A stretch of 64,000 bases of DNA from Oscillatoria sp. FACHB-1406 (GTDB taxonomy: Bacteria > Cyanobacteriota > Cyanobacteriia > Cyanobacteriales > Spirulinaceae): the NCBI RefSeq assembly GCF_014698145.1, contig NZ_JACJSM010000011.1, positions 62,001-126,000 on the forward strand, given 5' to 3'. The number at the start of each line of letters is the position of its first letter. Within the stretch, counting starts at the first letter, position 1. Shown here piece after piece: positions 7,742 to 35,763 of this stretch. The notes beneath the pieces were generated by a model, which saw nothing but the letters and a program-made list of their open reading frames with translations, was not told where the DNA came from and did not search any database. The translations under genes were made by a program, and so were the position numbers.

Positions 7742-8314
7742 ATGAGAACGTTAATTGTTGCAAGTAGCAATCCCGGTAAAGTGCGCGAAATGGAGGCTTA
7801 TTTAAGTCAGTTCGACTGGAAATGGGGCTTGATGCCGCCGGGATTGGAAATCGAGGAAACAGGAACGACCTTTGCCGAAAATGCTTGCTTGAAAGCGAGT
7901 GTTGTTGCGAAAGCGACGGGAGAATGGGCGATCGCGGACGATTCGGGCTTAGCGGTGGACGCGCTCGACGGCGCGCCCGGAATTTATTCCGCTCGCTATG
8001 CGGCAACCGATAGCGAGCGCATCGCCCGAGTTTTGTCCGAATTAGGAAACACCGATCGCCGCAGCGCCCAATTCGTGTGCGCGATCGCGATCGCCCGCCC
8101 CGACGGCTCAATTGCCCTCCAAACTGAAGGCATCTGCCCGGGAGAAATACTCCGGGAACCCCAAGGAACAGAAGGATTTGGCTACGATCCAATCTTTTAC
8201 GTTCCGGAGTTGCAGATGACCTTTGCACAAATGCCCGCAGAAGTCAAGCACGAAATCAGTCACCGCGCTAGAGCTTTTGCTGTTTTACTCTCTCAACAGT
8301 CAGTCCTCGATTAA
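7742..8314 (+). CDS. rdgB: dITP/XTP pyrophosphatase (RdgB/HAM1)
   Basis: 190 residues. Hydrolyses dITP, XTP and related non-canonical nucleoside triphosphates to monophosphates, keeping deaminated purines out of DNA and RNA. Visible motifs: 'VASSNPGKVREME' at the N-terminus (nucleotide binding), 'FAENACLKA', catalytic/metal 'ADDSGLAVDALDGAPGIYSARYA' (~residues 65-88) and 'GFGYDPIFYVPE' (~145). Length and motif order match the family. Start ATG follows a terminator-like hairpin by only 15 bp and has no strong Shine-Dalgarno, which suggests leader control. Its end is 18 bp from the end of convergent glnB. Confidence 0.94.
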   Translation: MRTLIVASSNPGKVREMEAYLSQFDWKWGLMPPGLEIEETGTTFAENACLKASVVAKATGEWAIADDSGLAVDALDGAPGIYSARYAATDSERIARVLSELGNTDRRSAQFVCAIAIARPDGSIALQTEGICPGEILREPQGTEGFGYDPIFYVPELQMTFAQMPAEVKHEISHRARAFAVLLSQQSVLD

Positions 8315-8759: not shown

Positions 8760-8789
8760 AAAAAAAATCCCCTGACGTTCGGTCAGAGG
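8760..8789 (-). terminator. Minus-strand Rho-independent terminator upstream of glnB
   Basis: On the minus strand CCTCTGAC and GTCAGGGG pair (one U-G wobble) around a CGAAC loop, then A and a run of eight T (ending at 8760). It would end a minus-strand transcript arriving from beyond 8790, before the glnB promoter. On the + strand the same palindrome has no T run, so its direction is clear. Confidence 0.7.
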
Positions 8790-8816
8790 AGAATTAACCA
8801 GGGTGCATCTACCAAT

Positions 8817-9358: not shown

Positions 9359-10381
9359 GTGAACTATCCCCGCGTGCTGTGTATGGGCGAGATGTTATTC
9401 GATCGCATAGCCGACCAACCCGGACTGCCGTTAGAAGAAGTTGAATCTTGGACGAATTATCCGGGAGGTGCGCCTGCGAATGTCGCTTGTGCGCTAGCCA
9501 AATTGGGGACAGCCGCAGGTTTCATCGGTTGCATCGGACGCGACGAGTGGGGAGAAAGCTTAGTGCGACTGCTCGAGGAGATTGGTGTAGATGCAGTAGG
9601 AGTTCAGCGCCACCCGACCGCGCCGACGCGCATCGTCTACGTGCTGAGGGACGACGCGGGGGAGTGCAGTTTTGCCGGATTCGATCTCTACGAAACCACC
9701 GAGTTTGCAGACGCTTATTTAAGCGCGTCGCAGTTACCGCTCGCTTGGATTCAAGCGGCCGATTTTTTGGTGTTGGGGGCGTTAGAGCTAGCGTATCCGC
9801 AAACGCGGGCGGCGATCGCGCGCGCCCTGGAAGTCGCAGAAGCATCGAATACGGCGATCTTTATTGACGTGAACCGGCGCGATCGCTTTTGGCCCAATCA
9901 GTGTCAATCTTTTCAACTGACCCAACAACTGGTCGAACGCGCTAACTTTTTAAAATGTACCGACGAAGAAGCGATGTGGTTGTTCAATACTACCGATGCT
10001 GGGATCATTGCTAAATGCCTCGATCGCGTTCGCGGCGTGTTAGTAACGGGGGGAGATCGCGGCTGTTCTTATTGGTTTCGGGGTGGCGAAGGCGAGCTAC
10101 CGGGCTTTAATGTCACGATTGAAGATGCAACAGGAGCCGGAGACGGGTTCAGCGCCGGAATTCTCCATCAGCTATGCCAGCGAGGACTCGACTGTCTGGA
10201 TAACCCTAAAATCCTGCGCGAAATCGTTCGGTATGCTAGCGCTGTGGGTGCGATGACCGTGATGAAGCCCGGTGCGATCGACGCTCAGCCGTCGGCGGTT
10301 GAAGTGACCCAGTTTTTAGCCGATTGGTCGGAAACGACTTCTGGGAGCGCTCAACCGGTTTTTTTAAAGACCAACCGATAA
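9359..10381 (+). CDS. PfkB-family carbohydrate kinase (fructokinase-like)
   Basis: 340 residues. Ribokinase/PfkB fold that phosphorylates a sugar with ATP; fructose is the most likely substrate, given the typical fructokinase N-terminus 'VLCMGEMLFDRIAD' and 'YPGGAPANVACALAKLG'. Catalytic C-terminal signature 'DATGAGDGFSAGILHQL' (~residues 258-274; Asp is the base), preceded by 'VLVTGGDRGCSYW'. Translation starts on GTG at 9359, with AAGGAGAAGG just upstream, which decides the start. A highly structured region precedes it. The next gene, a histidine kinase, is ~150 bp downstream on the same strand. Confidence 0.87.
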   Translation: MNYPRVLCMGEMLFDRIADQPGLPLEEVESWTNYPGGAPANVACALAKLGTAAGFIGCIGRDEWGESLVRLLEEIGVDAVGVQRHPTAPTRIVYVLRDDAGECSFAGFDLYETTEFADAYLSASQLPLAWIQAADFLVLGALELAYPQTRAAIARALEVAEASNTAIFIDVNRRDRFWPNQCQSFQLTQQLVERANFLKCTDEEAMWLFNTTDAGIIAKCLDRVRGVLVTGGDRGCSYWFRGGEGELPGFNVTIEDATGAGDGFSAGILHQLCQRGLDCLDNPKILREIVRYASAVGAMTVMKPGAIDAQPSAVEVTQFLADWSETTSGSAQPVFLKTNR

Positions 10382-31448: not shown

Positions 31449-32740
31449 GCTTCTTTACCTCCATTACATAGATTCTTTGCTATTTCCTTGACCCGATCGC
31501 TCAACTCACTCAAATTTACAAAAGACATCTTAGCCATAGGTTGTAGTGATTTTGATTCAGATGCTGACTCTTTCGCATTGGCTTCCAACCACTTTTTAGC
31601 ATCCTGATATAGCTTTTTGTTATGATTTGTTCCTTGACTTTGCAGAAAAATTTTGTATTGTTTTTCAGTTTTGAAGCTGCCGTCAGGATTCAAAAAACCC
31701 TGTTTGAGATTGCCATCATCATTCAAAAATTCTGGCTGTTTGGCTGGAGGCGAAGTTTCTGCTAACTCTGACCAATCAGCCCGAATCGCAAAATCTACTT
31801 TTCCACTCACTTCTACAACCCCAAAACCACTGCTGGTCTTTGCTCCAAAACCATAAACCGTCAGCATCGCTTCTACCCCTTTCGCCACCAATTCTAAATC
31901 TTTAGCAACTTCGCTTTCATTAGTTTTCCCAAAAGGTATATACAGAATCACAAAGTCACCTGTAGCATTTTTGGGAACACATTCTATGTAAATAGGTCCC
32001 CGTGCAGAAGTTCCTTTTTTGGGATCGTGCGGATTAATCACTTCCAATCCAATCTTGTCAAAGAAAGTGGGATAAAAATAGAGACGACCTGCTTGTCCTT
32101 TTTCATCTTCACGATCATCACCGAATAGTCGAATAATTTGTTCGTTGTTTTCTTTATAATCTAACTGCCATAGTGCTGCTCGTAAGGCTCCTTTCCAACT
32201 GGTCGAAGCAACCATCGGAGTTTGAAACACTTTGTCTTTACGAACGGGATTATCGAGGAGGTGAAAAGCGCGATCGTCCTTACTCAGATAGGGTTTCCGT
32301 AGCTTGAAGGGAACCCGTAGCATGAAGCTAAGGGATGGTAGAAAATTTAGAGCAGAGATATCTGGCGTGAAGTGAAAATCCTCTTTGATTTTGTCAGCGG
32401 TTAAGTGCTTCCGCCAAGCATCACGAATACAATTGGCATTTTCGGAGTTGAGTTTTGCTTGTTCCTTAGCCTTTTTTTCTTCAGTTTTATTATTTGCTTC
32501 TTTAGCTTGTTTGGCTTCCCTATCGTTTTCTTCTTTTTCTGCCCAAAACCACAGATACGCAAGATGAGGTTCAATCTGAACTGATTTTTCAGCAGCTTGC
32601 TCTATCTTCCTTTCTGCCTGTTGACGTGCATTTTTATCCTTACGTTGTTTCGCTTCATCGATTTCTACCTTTGCTCGATCGAGTTCATCTAGCGGCTCGC
32701 TTAATTGCTCTTTCCGAAAAGCATAATAGTCGTACTGCAT
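31445..32740 (-). CDS. Type III CRISPR RAMP protein, Cmr6-like, with charged coiled-coil insertion
   Basis: 431 residues. The Cas7-group core is visible: 'FLPSLSFMLRVPFKLRKPYL', 'TPMVASTSWKGALRAALWQL', 'RLFGDDREDEKGQAGRLYFY' and Gly-rich 'YGFGAKTSSGFGVVEVSGK'. The 'KGALR' plus 'GRLYF' pair is as in Cmr6/Cmr1. Unusual are residues ~15-120, a Lys/Glu/Ala-rich coiled coil ('EEKKAKEQAKLNSENANC'), and a ~120-residue charged C-terminal extension. Second in the operon; its start codon shares one base with the Cmr1 stop (TAATG). Could be called Cmr6 or a lineage-specific Cas7. Confidence 0.72.
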   Translation of the reverse strand: MQYDYYAFRKEQLSEPLDELDRAKVEIDEAKQRKDKNARQQAERKIEQAAEKSVQIEPHLAYLWFWAEKEENDREAKQAKEANNKTEEKKAKEQAKLNSENANCIRDAWRKHLTADKIKEDFHFTPDISALNFLPSLSFMLRVPFKLRKPYLSKDDRAFHLLDNPVRKDKVFQTPMVASTSWKGALRAALWQLDYKENNEQIIRLFGDDREDEKGQAGRLYFYPTFFDKIGLEVINPHDPKKGTSARGPIYIECVPKNATGDFVILYIPFGKTNESEVAKDLELVAKGVEAMLTVYGFGAKTSSGFGVVEVSGKVDFAIRADWSELAETSPPAKQPEFLNDDGNLKQGFLNPDGSFKTEKQYKIFLQSQGTNHNKKLYQDAKKWLEANAKESASESKSLQPMAKMSFVNLSELSDRVKEIAKNLCNGGKEA

Positions 32741-33936
32741 TATTCATCCTCCTGCAATTGCAACAAGCTACGAAGAAATCCTCGAACATCAGTGTGATTT
32801 GCGGTGACAGTATCTCTCTCCGAGTTCATTTCTCGCCAACCATGCAACGTATAGTTTTCTTTCAGGTGTTGATAAATGGCATCTATGACCTTTTCTCGAT
32901 TCCATCCATTTTTGTAAACATCCGCCTCTTCTGGAACCCAACCCCATATACGCATCAACTTGTCATTCTTATAAGGACGAGAAATTTTGACTTTGGCAGC
33001 TATGCGATCGCCGTTCACCGCGCCCATGATGAAGTGGCGTAAATCTTTGTTACCATCAACCTCGCTTATGCTTCTATCCTTCTTGTCTTTGTTAAGAATT
33101 AAACTTTTGGATTCAGTTTTGACCTGAATTCTATTCTCTTCTGTTCTAATTTCCTCTTCTGCCCTAAAACAGTTACGAAGGTCATACTTTAAGTTAAAAG
33201 TGTCTTGTTCGCTAAACGAAGGATTTGAGTCTTTGGGTTGAATCTGCGCCAGAAAGATGTTCGATAGCGAAGGCAGATCTGGATAAATATTACTTCCGTC
33301 TATAGAAAAGAGCCAGTCACAGAGCGGTTGTGTATTAATGCGCTCTTCTATCTCAATTACACCAAAACCCATTTGAGGTCGCGCACCCAATGCCGAATAA
33401 TCAGCTATAAACTGAATCAATCCGCCAATGATTTCTGGCTTAAAATCTGGGTTTAAGCTATGAATTCTTAGAGTAAATATGCCAGTCTTTGGAGTATTGG
33501 GAGGTTCTGGAAAGTACCAAGTTGGTGTTTTCTGCTTGCTCTGTTTATCTGTATAATAAGTACGATTTGCTCGAATAGGATGCTTAATTGTGGCGTTAAC
33601 TACTTGAGTTTCCTCAATTTCTAACCGAAATCGTCGTTTCCAGCCCGTTGCACCGAAAATTTGTGACACATCGCATAATCCAGCATGGCGTAAGTATTGG
33701 CGGCGTTCAGCTTCATCTTGCAACTTGCGATATTTCTGGGCATCAAATTTATAAGGGTCTAAGCCGCTGCGACTTTCAGAGGTTGGATCGTTGACTTGAC
33801 CGCCCAATCCTCGCACCAGCACTTCCATCCACCAGCGCAGACTACCTAGGATGCCTGTTTCGTGGATGCGATCGCACTTTCCAGTTTCCACACCCCCAGT
33901 CCAGAGAGGAGTTAATGTTTTAATATTAATTTCCAT
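32740..33936 (-). CDS. cmr1: Type III CRISPR RAMP protein Cmr1-like (Cas7 group)
   Basis: 398 residues. The N-terminus is diagnostic of Cmr1: 'INIKTLTPLWTGGVETGKCD' then 'ETGILGSLRWWMEVLVRGLG'. Also 'VSQIFGATGWKRRFRLEIEE' and 'YSALGARPQMGFGVIEIEER' (Gly-rich loop, ~205). Cmr1 caps the 3' end of the crRNA in Cmr complexes. First gene of the operon; the ATG has GGAGG 6 nt upstream and a TATAGT -10 about 30 bp further. The whole operon is visibly more A/T-rich and HIP1-poor than its flanks, suggesting acquisition. Confidence 0.87.
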   Translation of the reverse strand: MEINIKTLTPLWTGGVETGKCDRIHETGILGSLRWWMEVLVRGLGGQVNDPTSESRSGLDPYKFDAQKYRKLQDEAERRQYLRHAGLCDVSQIFGATGWKRRFRLEIEETQVVNATIKHPIRANRTYYTDKQSKQKTPTWYFPEPPNTPKTGIFTLRIHSLNPDFKPEIIGGLIQFIADYSALGARPQMGFGVIEIEERINTQPLCDWLFSIDGSNIYPDLPSLSNIFLAQIQPKDSNPSFSEQDTFNLKYDLRNCFRAEEEIRTEENRIQVKTESKSLILNKDKKDRSISEVDGNKDLRHFIMGAVNGDRIAAKVKISRPYKNDKLMRIWGWVPEEADVYKNGWNREKVIDAIYQHLKENYTLHGWREMNSERDTVTANHTDVRGFLRSLLQLQEDE

Positions 33937-33962
33937 TTTCCTCCAAGTAGCACATTTGTCTC

Positions 33963-33968
33963 ACTATA
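33963..33968 (-). promoter_or_regulatory. Probable -10 of the CRISPR effector operon
   Basis: TATAGT on the minus strand, 27 bp before the Cmr1-like ATG, within GGCTATAGT. No convincing -35 is present. No CRISPR repeats occur between here and aroF. Confidence 0.45.
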
Positions 33969-34005
33969 GCCTACCTTTAAAAATTTAATCCACTCGGCGA
34001 AGGGA

Positions 34006-34034
34006 TTGACACAGGGCAAATTCTCTGCTACGGT
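34006..34034 (+). promoter_or_regulatory. Promoter candidate upstream of the aroF leader region
   Basis: Exact TTGACA (34006-34011), 17-bp spacer, TACGGT (34029-34034; 3 of 6 to TATAAT). Predicted start near 34041 would give either a ~140-nt sRNA ending at 34181 or, on read-through, a ~385-nt aroF leader. Confidence 0.4.
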
Positions 34035-34040
34035 TTGGAA

Positions 34041-34181
34041 TACTTGTAAAAAATCTGTCCGTTCAGTGTTCTACAGCGCCTCTTACTTTTATTTTTGGTT
34101 TAGCAAGGTTCGCCCAAGGTGAATCCCGCTTCGGCACGGACACTTTCGGCGAACCGCTAGCTCTAGAAGCAGCGGTTTTTT
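34041..34181 (+). ncRNA. Candidate small RNA or first terminator of the aroF leader
   Basis: GGTTCGCC (34107-34114) pairs with GGCGAACC (34148-34155), enclosing a smaller CCG...CGG hairpin. An overlapping alternative, CCGCT (34154-34158) with AGCGG (34171-34175) plus TTTTTT (34176-34181), is a good terminator. The two stems share bases 34154-34155, so they may be partly exclusive. With the TTGACA at 34006 this is a complete transcription unit in miniature. Confidence 0.45.
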
Positions 34182-34262
34182 AATGCACTAGCCAAACCGT
34201 ACCTAAAATTAAGGCGCTACTCAGCTAATACCCTTTTGAGACGATAGTCAGCGATCGCTAAA

Positions 34263-34328
34263 ATGACCCCTACCCACAACAACTTCTACTTTTTCTTCTT
34301 TTGGTATCCCCCATTGAAATCTGGGTAG
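34263..34328 (+). CDS. aroL-leader: aroF leader peptide (21 codons, aromatic run)
   Basis: ATG at 34263, stop TAG at 34326. The peptide starts 'MTPTHNN', continues with eight consecutive aromatic residues 'FYFFFFWY' (five Phe, two Tyr, one Trp), then 'PPLKSG'. All three aromatic amino acids made by the pathway are represented. The stop codon lies inside RNA segment 2 of the attenuator, as in classical phe/trp leaders. No strong Shine-Dalgarno is visible, as is frequent in cyanobacteria. Chance of eight aromatic codons in a row in a short frame beside a DAHP synthase gene is very small. The symbol is descriptive only. Confidence 0.85.
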   Translation: MTPTHNNFYFFFFWYPPLKSG

Positions 34329-34381
34329 AAGTTGCTTGCTGTCTCGTCCGCCCGGATTCTTCCCAGAGTCCGGGCTTTTTT
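34280..34381 (+). promoter_or_regulatory. Ribosome-mediated transcription attenuator of aroF
   Basis: Segment 1 CAACTTCTAC (34280-34289, over the first aromatic codons) pairs perfectly with segment 2 GTAGAAGTTG (34325-34334). Segment 2 with its flank, CTGGGTAGAAG (34321-34331), can instead pair with CTTCCCAG (34359-34366). That pairing crosses, and so excludes, the terminator GCCCGGA/TCCGGGC (34350-34356 with 34369-34375) followed by TTTTTT. A ribosome stalled on aromatic codons hides segment 1 and frees 2 for antitermination; a ribosome at the stop codon hides 2 and allows termination. Confidence 0.8.
34350..34381 (+). terminator. Attenuator terminator before aroF
   Basis: 7-bp GC-rich stem GCCCGGA/TCCGGGC, 12-nt loop, then six T. 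It is 45 bp before the aroF start, on the same strand, so it must be read through for aroF expression. Confidence 0.85.
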
Positions 34382-34425
34382 AATCTCAAAATCGTTCCCT
34401 TTACCCCCTCGAGGAATCACTAATC

Positions 34426-35277
34426 GTGTCTATTCAACAACTCGCCAGCAAAGTCCACGCCAACCACGTCAGCCTTGTTTCCCTGTCCGATACCGTAACC
34501 TTCGGCGGGCAGGAAATCGTCATCATCGGCGGACCTTGCGCGGTAGAAAGTTTAGCGCAGATGGAAACCGTCGCGCGCGAACTCCGTCACGCCCCCGTAC
34601 AAGCCATACGCGGCGGCGCTTTCAAGCCTCGCACTTCTCCCTATGCCTTCCAAGGTTTGGGCGAAACGGGATTGGATATTTTAGCGGAGATTAAACGGCG
34701 TTTCGATGTACCCGTGGTGACAGAGGTGATGTCGATCGCTCAAATTGACGCGATCGCTGCCAAAGCCGATATGCTACAAGTAGGCAGTCGCAATATGCAG
34801 AACTTCGACCTGCTTAAAGCCCTCGGCCAAGCCAATAAACCCATCCTCCTCAAACGCGGACTCGCCGCCACCCTCGAAGAATTCATCGGTGCAGCGGAAT
34901 ATATCCTCAGTCACGGCAACCCCAACGTCGTCCTTTGCGAACGAGGAATCCGCAGCTTCGATACTTTCACGCGCAACGTCCTCGATTTAGGCATCGTCGC
35001 CGCCCTCAAACAACTCACCCACCTGCCTGTAGTTGTCGATCCTTCCCACGCTGCTGGGAAACGGGAACTCGTCGCCCCCCTCGCTAAAGCTGCTATTGCT
35101 TGCGGGGCGGACGGTTTGATTGTAGAATGCCACCCCCAGCCCGAACAATCCGTCTCTGACGCGCGGCAAGCCCTCTCGCTGCCGGAGTTTGTAAATTTGA
35201 TACGGGAGTTGCAACCCATCGCGACGGCCGTCGGACGTTCGATCGCGTCACCCGTGCGAGAACCCATCGCTGCTTAA
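34426..35277 (+). CDS. aroF: 3-deoxy-7-phosphoheptulonate (DAHP) synthase
   Basis: 283 residues. Condenses PEP and erythrose 4-phosphate, the first step of the shikimate pathway to Phe, Tyr and Trp. The short class I-beta form: 'GGQEIVIIGGPCAVESLAQM' (~residue 28), 'RGGAFKPRTSPYAFQGLG' (PEP/E4P binding), 'LQVGSRNMQNFDLL', 'KPILLKRGLAATLEEF', 'VLCERGIRSFDTFTRN', 'LPVVVDPSHAAGKRELV' and 'GADGLIVECHPQPEQS' are all intact. There is no N-terminal ACT or chorismate mutase regulatory domain of usual size (only ~25 residues before the barrel), consistent with control at the RNA level. Starts on GTG at 34426 after GAGGA. Confidence 0.95.
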   Translation: MSIQQLASKVHANHVSLVSLSDTVTFGGQEIVIIGGPCAVESLAQMETVARELRHAPVQAIRGGAFKPRTSPYAFQGLGETGLDILAEIKRRFDVPVVTEVMSIAQIDAIAAKADMLQVGSRNMQNFDLLKALGQANKPILLKRGLAATLEEFIGAAEYILSHGNPNVVLCERGIRSFDTFTRNVLDLGIVAALKQLTHLPVVVDPSHAAGKRELVAPLAKAAIACGADGLIVECHPQPEQSVSDARQALSLPEFVNLIRELQPIATAVGRSIASPVREPIAA

Positions 35278-35454
35278 TCCCAGATTTCATAACCGTTCTG
35301 AGCGACAGCCATTCCGAACTCGTAGGGGCGTTTAATCGAACGTCCCTATATTAAAACGAGCGCTCGTTTTTACGGTTGTCAAAAATCGAACTCTAAAAGC
35401 ATTCAAGCTTCAGTATAATTGCACCCAAGCTATTCAAGATTGCGTACCTATTCT

Positions 35455-35763
35455 ATGGAAGACTCTACAACGTCCTCAAAACCGTTCCGCGTCCGTCTTC
35501 TCATTTCCGGACTCGTGCAAGGAGTTGGCTACCGTTACTCCACGGTACGGCAAGCGCAAAAATACGGGATTAAGGGCTGGGTGAGGAACTTAGACGATGG
35601 AAGGGTGGAAGCTTGGTTGGAGGGCGATCGCGCGGCGGTCGATCGCGTGGTTCAATGGTGTCATCAAGGGCCACCCGGCGCTAAAGTCCGCGAAGTGCGA
35701 CTCATCGATGAATCACTCTCCTCACAACCGATAATGACAACCTTTGAAGTACGGCGAGATTAA
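35455..35763 (+). CDS. acyP: Acylphosphatase
   Basis: 102 residues from the ATG at 35455. Hydrolyses acyl phosphates such as acetyl- and carbamoyl-phosphate. Both signatures are present: 'RLLISGLVQGVGYRYSTVRQ' (phosphate loop with catalytic Arg in 'GYR') and 'GIKGWVRNLDDGRVEAWLEG' (Asn of 'VRN' is catalytic). The frame is open from a TTG at 35419, but family members start near the ATG. Stand-alone; the 35278-35454 gap shows only short ordinary intergenic DNA. Confidence 0.93.
   Translation: MEDSTTSSKPFRVRLLISGLVQGVGYRYSTVRQAQKYGIKGWVRNLDDGRVEAWLEGDRAAVDRVVQWCHQGPPGAKVREVRLIDESLSSQPIMTTFEVRRD

Follow-up and report, generated by a model that had tools for sequence, protein, structure and literature searches.

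The aroF gene in the 64,000-nucleotide stretch of Oscillatoria sp. FACHB-1406 DNA analysed here (hereafter, the window, to which all coordinates refer unless stated) is very probably controlled by two ribosome-mediated transcription attenuators in series, for which ribosome stalling, premature termination and a response to charged tRNA are inferred. The preliminary description of this locus had proposed one aromatic leader-peptide attenuator of aroF. Relatives support this element (LP2), but the account was incomplete, as it missed a further aromatic leader (LP1, 34066–34181), about 200 bases upstream of LP2, which is independent of it and has a terminator of its own. Comparison of sequences between species shows both open reading frames (ORFs), selection on their aromatic codons, alternative stems, a conserved promoter and target specificity; no expression, term-seq or ribosome-profiling data lie behind the attenuator reading.

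The aroF gene (34426–35277, plus strand) encodes a 3-deoxy-7-phosphoheptulonate (DAHP) synthase of 283 amino acids, which matched TIGR01361 above the cut-off. DAHP synthase catalyses the first step in the synthesis of aromatic amino acids. The short aroF product contains PF00793 and lacks the ferredoxin-like regulatory domain PF18152, which is present in a long DAHP synthase paralogue of the same genome. This bears out the earlier claim that the enzyme has no N-terminal regulatory domain, and places the proposed RNA control on the domain-less enzyme of the two. The upstream neighbour, a RAMP-superfamily gene (32740–33936; PF03787, CRISPR-associated superfamily), is separated from aroF by 489 nt and lies on the minus strand, so plus-strand terminators in this gap could be ruled out as belonging to it and can only serve the aroF transcript. 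No match was found in the plasmid collection searched.

The LP2 leader peptide (MTPTHNNFYFFFFWYPPLKSG) is encoded on the plus strand at 34263–34328, with an ATG start, 21 codons and a TAG stop, and it has the eight consecutive aromatic codons first reported. The 10-bp protector stem between segments 1 and 2 (34280–34289 with 34325–34334, plus strand) is likewise perfect, and the Rho-independent terminator formed by segments 3 and 4 (34350–34381, plus strand), with an 11-bp stem, a loop and a T run, was recovered as the sole terminator in a scan of 33500–35700. The competing pairing had to be revised: the one originally proposed, 34321–34331 with 34359–34366, is possible, but relatives conserve an antiterminator in which segment 2 (AATCTGGGT, 34318–34326) pairs with the 5' arm of the terminator (GCCCGGATT, 34350–34358, plus strand; RNA duplex, −14.6 kcal/mol). 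The LP2 leader fold was far more stable than those of shuffled sequences (z = −6.7, reached by 0 of 200), and the covariance model R2 had its only significant match in the window's genome at 34263–34384 (E = 6.3e-8). Across relatives, the peptide has the rough consensus MTYFSSWFYGFYFWPRxSSG and the terminator reads CCCGGAAC...GTTCCGGG. The 1:2 stem is also found in relatives, where the start region prefers its own post-stop region over a swapped one (p = 8e-7), and a Shine-Dalgarno-like motif precedes LP2 at 14 of 58 loci (4.3 expected).

LP1 comprises 18 codons (MFYSASYFYFWFSKVRPR) from GTG 34066 to TGA 34122 on the plus strand, and its aromatic run in the window is S-Y-F-Y-F-W-F. The antiterminator (segments 2:3, 34107–34155, plus strand) has the core GGTTCGCC (34107–34114) paired with GGCGAACC (34148–34155), and the terminator (segments 3:4, 34152–34181, plus strand) pairs AACCGCT (34152–34158) with AGCGGTT (34171–34177), followed by a T run. 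The covariance model R1 matched 34066–34186 (E = 2.7e-13), again the only significant match in the window's genome. The rough consensus across relatives is M-x-SSSYFYFWFxxVHRE, with a terminator of the form AACCGCAGA...TCTGCGGTT. A 1:2 protector stem was not supported for LP1 when the pairing of own and swapped regions was compared (p = 0.096). In a survey of the 2,070 small ORFs of 10–40 amino acids in the window (every start counted), the aromatic-dense ones (at least 6 aromatics per 10 residues) formed three families, two of which are LP1 and LP2.

To describe selection on the two ORFs, single-base differences between species at aromatic codons were counted and compared with those expected; the comparisons are pairwise and not phylogenetically independent. 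At LP1, changes from one aromatic residue to another were in large excess (1265 seen vs 172 expected), synonymous changes were moderately so (485 vs 343), and changes to other residues were strongly depleted (94 vs 1329). The corresponding numbers at LP2 were 752 vs 178, 868 vs 355 and 312 vs 1399. All three aromatic amino acids are represented in 108 of 110 leaders (51/52 LP1 and 57/58 LP2), and almost every gap within either ORF is a multiple of three. Selection on LP1 was weak when all codons outside segment 2 were taken together (dN/dS-like ratio, 0.69). Aromaticity is kept and the particular residue is free, as the sensing of aromatic tRNAs would require.

In both leaders the antiterminator shares segment 3 with the terminator, making the two structures mutually exclusive, and the stop codons are located at segment 2. 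Covariation was evaluated in alignments of 52 LP1 and 53 LP2 elements. For the 2:3 stem, 93.2% of cells were paired in LP1, with 42 changed on both sides, and 85% in LP2, with 33 changed on both sides; none of 500 shuffles scored as high in either case, and sliding the 2:3 partner led to a sharp drop in pairing for both leaders. The window's own lineage has a two-sided change from A-U to G-C at LP1 alignment columns 59/113. The 3:4 terminator pairings also covary in both leaders, and each segment 2 forms a better pairing with segment 3 of the same leader than with segment 3 from another species (p = 7e-12 and 2e-8 for the two leaders).

These comparisons also bear on the possibility that only LP2 works as an attenuator and that LP1 is a decayed or constitutive relic. 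Such a history would fit the GTG start of LP1 in the window, the lack of a Shine-Dalgarno motif in relatives (a motif of this kind was seen at 1 of 52 loci) and the weaker codon selection outside segment 2. LP1 is nevertheless the better conserved leader by covariance model (2.7e-13 vs 6.3e-8), its 2:3 stem has the stronger covariation, its aromatic codons are kept more strictly, and it is the only leader at some loci (e.g., L006). We thus consider it very unlikely that LP1 is a relic, and retain it as the first of two working attenuators.

The effect of ribosome position on the fold was modelled with ViennaRNA, with the nucleotides under the model ribosome held unpaired and the transcript folded only through segment 3, the stage at which the fold is decided. 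The 2:3 stem formed in 52 of 52 LP1 and 44 of 58 LP2 elements when the ribosome was placed mid-run, and in none of either (0/52 and 0/58) when it was placed at the stop codon. In silico, at least, ribosome position is predicted to decide the fold as attenuation requires. Without a ribosome, the antiterminator formed in 50 of 52 LP1 elements and LP2 was split between the 1:2 and 2:3 stems. The two switches are therefore expected to respond differently to a failure of translation. For the window's LP2, the probability of 2:3 was 1.0 for a stall at the first codon of the run, 0.21 mid-run and 0.04 late, predicting that an early stall is more effective than a late one. In the model, a stall at the final aromatic codon of LP1 would place the ribosome over part of segment 2. 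When segment 4 was included at equilibrium, LP2 terminators usually won, and the full-length LP2 terminator of the window outstabilised the antiterminator in every ribosome state. LP2 must accordingly rely on the order of synthesis, that is, on kinetic trapping of 2:3. Such reliance is usual for attenuators.

On general grounds, alternative stems are compatible with any ligand and U-rich runs can be protein-binding sites, and a riboswitch, a T-box or an RNA-binding protein might therefore select between 2:3 and 3:4, the ORFs being merely incidental U-rich sequence. No T-box or other Rfam cis-regulator was detected in this region at the gathering threshold, and matches in 33990–34430 were at chance level only. 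Moreover, the substitutions obey the reading frame, aromatic codons being exchanged for synonymous or other aromatic ones, and both leaders have their stop codons at segment 2; we regard this explanation as extremely improbable and translation-dependent attenuation as the better reading of the stems. Elsewhere in the window, at 8761–8814 on the minus strand, there is a match to the Rfam family NsiR1 (nitrogen stress-induced RNA 1; E = 4.9e-7). It is a lone copy with no repeat array, between ORFs 7742–8314 and 9359–10381. In heterocyst formers, this RNA is known to occur as a tandem array.

A promoter is predicted upstream of LP1 on the plus strand, with TTGACA at 34006–34011, a 17-nt spacer and TACGGT at 34029–34034, from which a transcription start at about 34041 was inferred. 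This is an instance of a conserved TTGACN-N16-19-TANNNT motif, found no more than 150 nt upstream of LP1 at 48 of 52 loci (0.8 expected), the −10 box ending a median of 45 nt before the start codon. The motif precedes LP2 at only 1 of 58 loci, and this locus (L100) has no detectable LP1. A sigma-70-like site at 34236–34264 was considered as an LP2 promoter and rejected, since it overlaps the LP2 start codon and is conserved in only 1 of 58 loci. Given a promoter conserved before LP1 and none before LP2, the two leaders and aroF should be on a single transcript.

In the mechanism that we propose, RNA polymerase would start near 34041 and transcribe LP1, while a ribosome would translate its aromatic run. 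When Phe-, Tyr- or Trp-tRNA is scarce, the ribosome would stall and leave segment 2 free to pair with segment 3, and the polymerase would continue. When aromatics are plentiful, the ribosome would reach the stop codon, inside or right after segment 2, and cover this segment, and the 3:4 terminator would form. LP2 would then repeat the same test with a different RNA sequence, and a full aroF mRNA would be made only when both terminators had been passed. If left untranslated, LP2 should favour termination through its 1:2 stem, and LP1, for which no such stem was supported, should allow readthrough as its default state. It is inferred that the ORFs are translated, that ribosomes stall on them, that transcription ends prematurely, that the leaders respond to aromatic supply or charged tRNA, and that the two gates multiply in a tandem logic. 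A broader version is tentative, and we hold it with less than even confidence: in many Cyanobacteriota, including a sister class, the tandem may act as an AND gate that reads all three aromatic amino acids, with opposite untranslated defaults (readthrough at LP1, termination at LP2). It would then sense charged aromatic tRNA together with overall translation, and would take the place of allosteric feedback on a DAHP synthase that has no regulatory domain.

We profiled the occurrence of the leaders at orthologous loci and across the phylum. Close relatives without the ORF, its aromatic run or the terminator would have refuted the attenuator as first described; instead, 91 of 95 orthologous short-aroF loci had at least one leader with a terminator, and 73 had both leaders. 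Culturable cyanobacteria with both leaders include Calothrix brevissima NIES-22 and Nostoc punctiforme NIES-2108. The same detector found none at long DAHP synthase paralogues (0/10), at other genes (0/66) or in dinucleotide shuffles (0/200); 21 matches that appeared among the controls were the aroF genes themselves. Among 386 genomes of the phylum, LP1 was detected in 38, LP2 in 39 (two of them weak) and a short aroF at ≥61% identity in 39. Just upstream of an intact short aroF lay 36 of the 38 LP1 (R1) matches. The other two were at an aroF split by an insertion (G415) and at a decayed aroF remnant (G083); the latter was examined as an exception to the linkage with aroF and discarded as such, as the sequence downstream is a decayed aroF fragment. 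A general aromatic regulon was also rejected for the window's genome, in which neither R1 nor R2 matches anywhere else. Both of its chorismate-binding genes (PF00425, trpE-type) are without a leader, and its pheA has only a weak, unsupported ORF upstream. Although the peptides are hydrophobic and alike in length, and terminated leaders of ~140 and ~340 nt could, by inference, be stable RNAs, it is hardly credible that the leaders are functional small (membrane) peptides or trans-acting sRNAs with aroF control as a secondary effect, because the residue at each position varies among the aromatics and remains aromatic, as a tRNA sensor predicts, the linkage to one gene is strict across the phylum, and the alternative stems covary.

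The two disrupted loci are observations in their own right. In G083 (contig C48, locus L154), LP1 and the antiterminator remain on the minus strand at ~2543–2656 beside the decayed aroF fragment, a relic left where the short DAHP synthase was lost naturally. In G415 (C1:3949000-3958500, reverse strand; locus L158, family f33), an element of ~5.8 kb interrupts aroF. It has a phage-type integrase (PF00589) and is bordered by exact 16-bp direct repeats (TACGCTTTCCAGGGAA); the two leaders are still present, as are the 5' and 3' portions of aroF. The element is similar to the excisable elements that interrupt genes in heterocystous cyanobacteria.

In a sister class of the same phylum, 18 of 22 short-type genes were preceded by an aromatic leader with a terminator, against none of 12 long-type genes, and R1 recognised LP1 there with E-values down to 6.5e-16. 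A related Melainabacteria MAG (L110) suggests, by inference, that this class is a non-photosynthetic lineage. In the protein tree, the sister-class family f59 fell among the cyanobacterial short aroF sequences, and families f57, f63 and f54 fell outside, with leaders of their own. The nesting of f59 makes a joint transfer of gene and leader between the classes possible, and it could not be shown that the leader has been inherited vertically from a time before the sister class diverged. With this possible transfer on one side and the other sister-class leaders branching outside on the other, the age of the system is not settled. Family f54 (L155 and L191 to L194) is a very divergent short DAHP synthase lineage (tree branch length, 4.9) with single aromatic leaders, e.g., MQKPNFSFFWFYFNPQGSD, and terminators, and the same control may have arisen independently there. 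A contig labelled as an Actinobacteria MAG (L102), which is probably mis-binned, has a short aroF of cyanobacterial type preceded by an LP1-like leader (MSQQVFRFWFSKVHLG).

A 1:2 stem is not essential to the basic mechanism of ribosome-mediated attenuation. Like the enteric trp, pheA and pheST attenuators (trpL, pheL), the aroF leaders have a short ORF rich in codons for the end product, a stop near segment 2, and a 2:3 antiterminator and a 3:4 intrinsic terminator that exclude each other, and LP2 also has a 1:2 protector stem (classical features in part from PMC3641672). They differ in that aroF has two attenuators in series, each mixing Phe, Tyr and Trp codons, in that they control DAHP synthase in a different phylum, and in that LP1 has no supported 1:2 stem. 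The closest candidates elsewhere are less alike. The uORFC-13-1 motif of Acholeplasma was proposed from comparative genomics as a candidate Phe uORF with a terminator directly upstream of aroF, with 24 representatives, one named genus and a U run coding for at least one Phe (PMC8632094). As described there, it differs from the cyanobacterial leaders in phylum and in having a single uORF, no tandem and no mixed aromatic run (PMC8632094). The Salmonella mgtCBR leader has two short ORFs, each in attenuation-like control, but they sense different signals (ATP and proline) without structures like intrinsic terminators (PMC3641672); both aroF leaders, in contrast, read the same three amino acids and have intrinsic terminators. 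For Actinobacteria, another phylum, one report gives comparative evidence for RNA control of amino acid genes by leader attenuators outside Proteobacteria (PMC1262725). A 2016 paper from a group searching for attenuators stated that there were no reliable data on attenuation in cyanobacteria (PMC4833913), and we found no later report in the open-access literature searched, most subscription papers not being covered. The mechanism itself is classical attenuation that works like that of trp and phe; the phylum, the conserved tandem and the breadth are new, and a conserved tandem for the same signal before a DAHP synthase is new as far as could be checked.

The locus provides strong comparative evidence for attenuation in many cyanobacterial genera, in an unusual tandem form. 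It makes it possible to test whether, in cyanobacteria, the coupling of transcription to translation is close enough for a ribosome on the leader to steer the polymerase; the AND-gate reading, if true, would prove such close coupling. Two further questions become accessible to tests, namely why a serial arrangement with two sensors for the same amino acids is retained, and how work is divided between the domain-less DAHP synthase and its regulated paralogue. For the engineering of aromatic products in cyanobacteria, the native leader would cap aroF expression.
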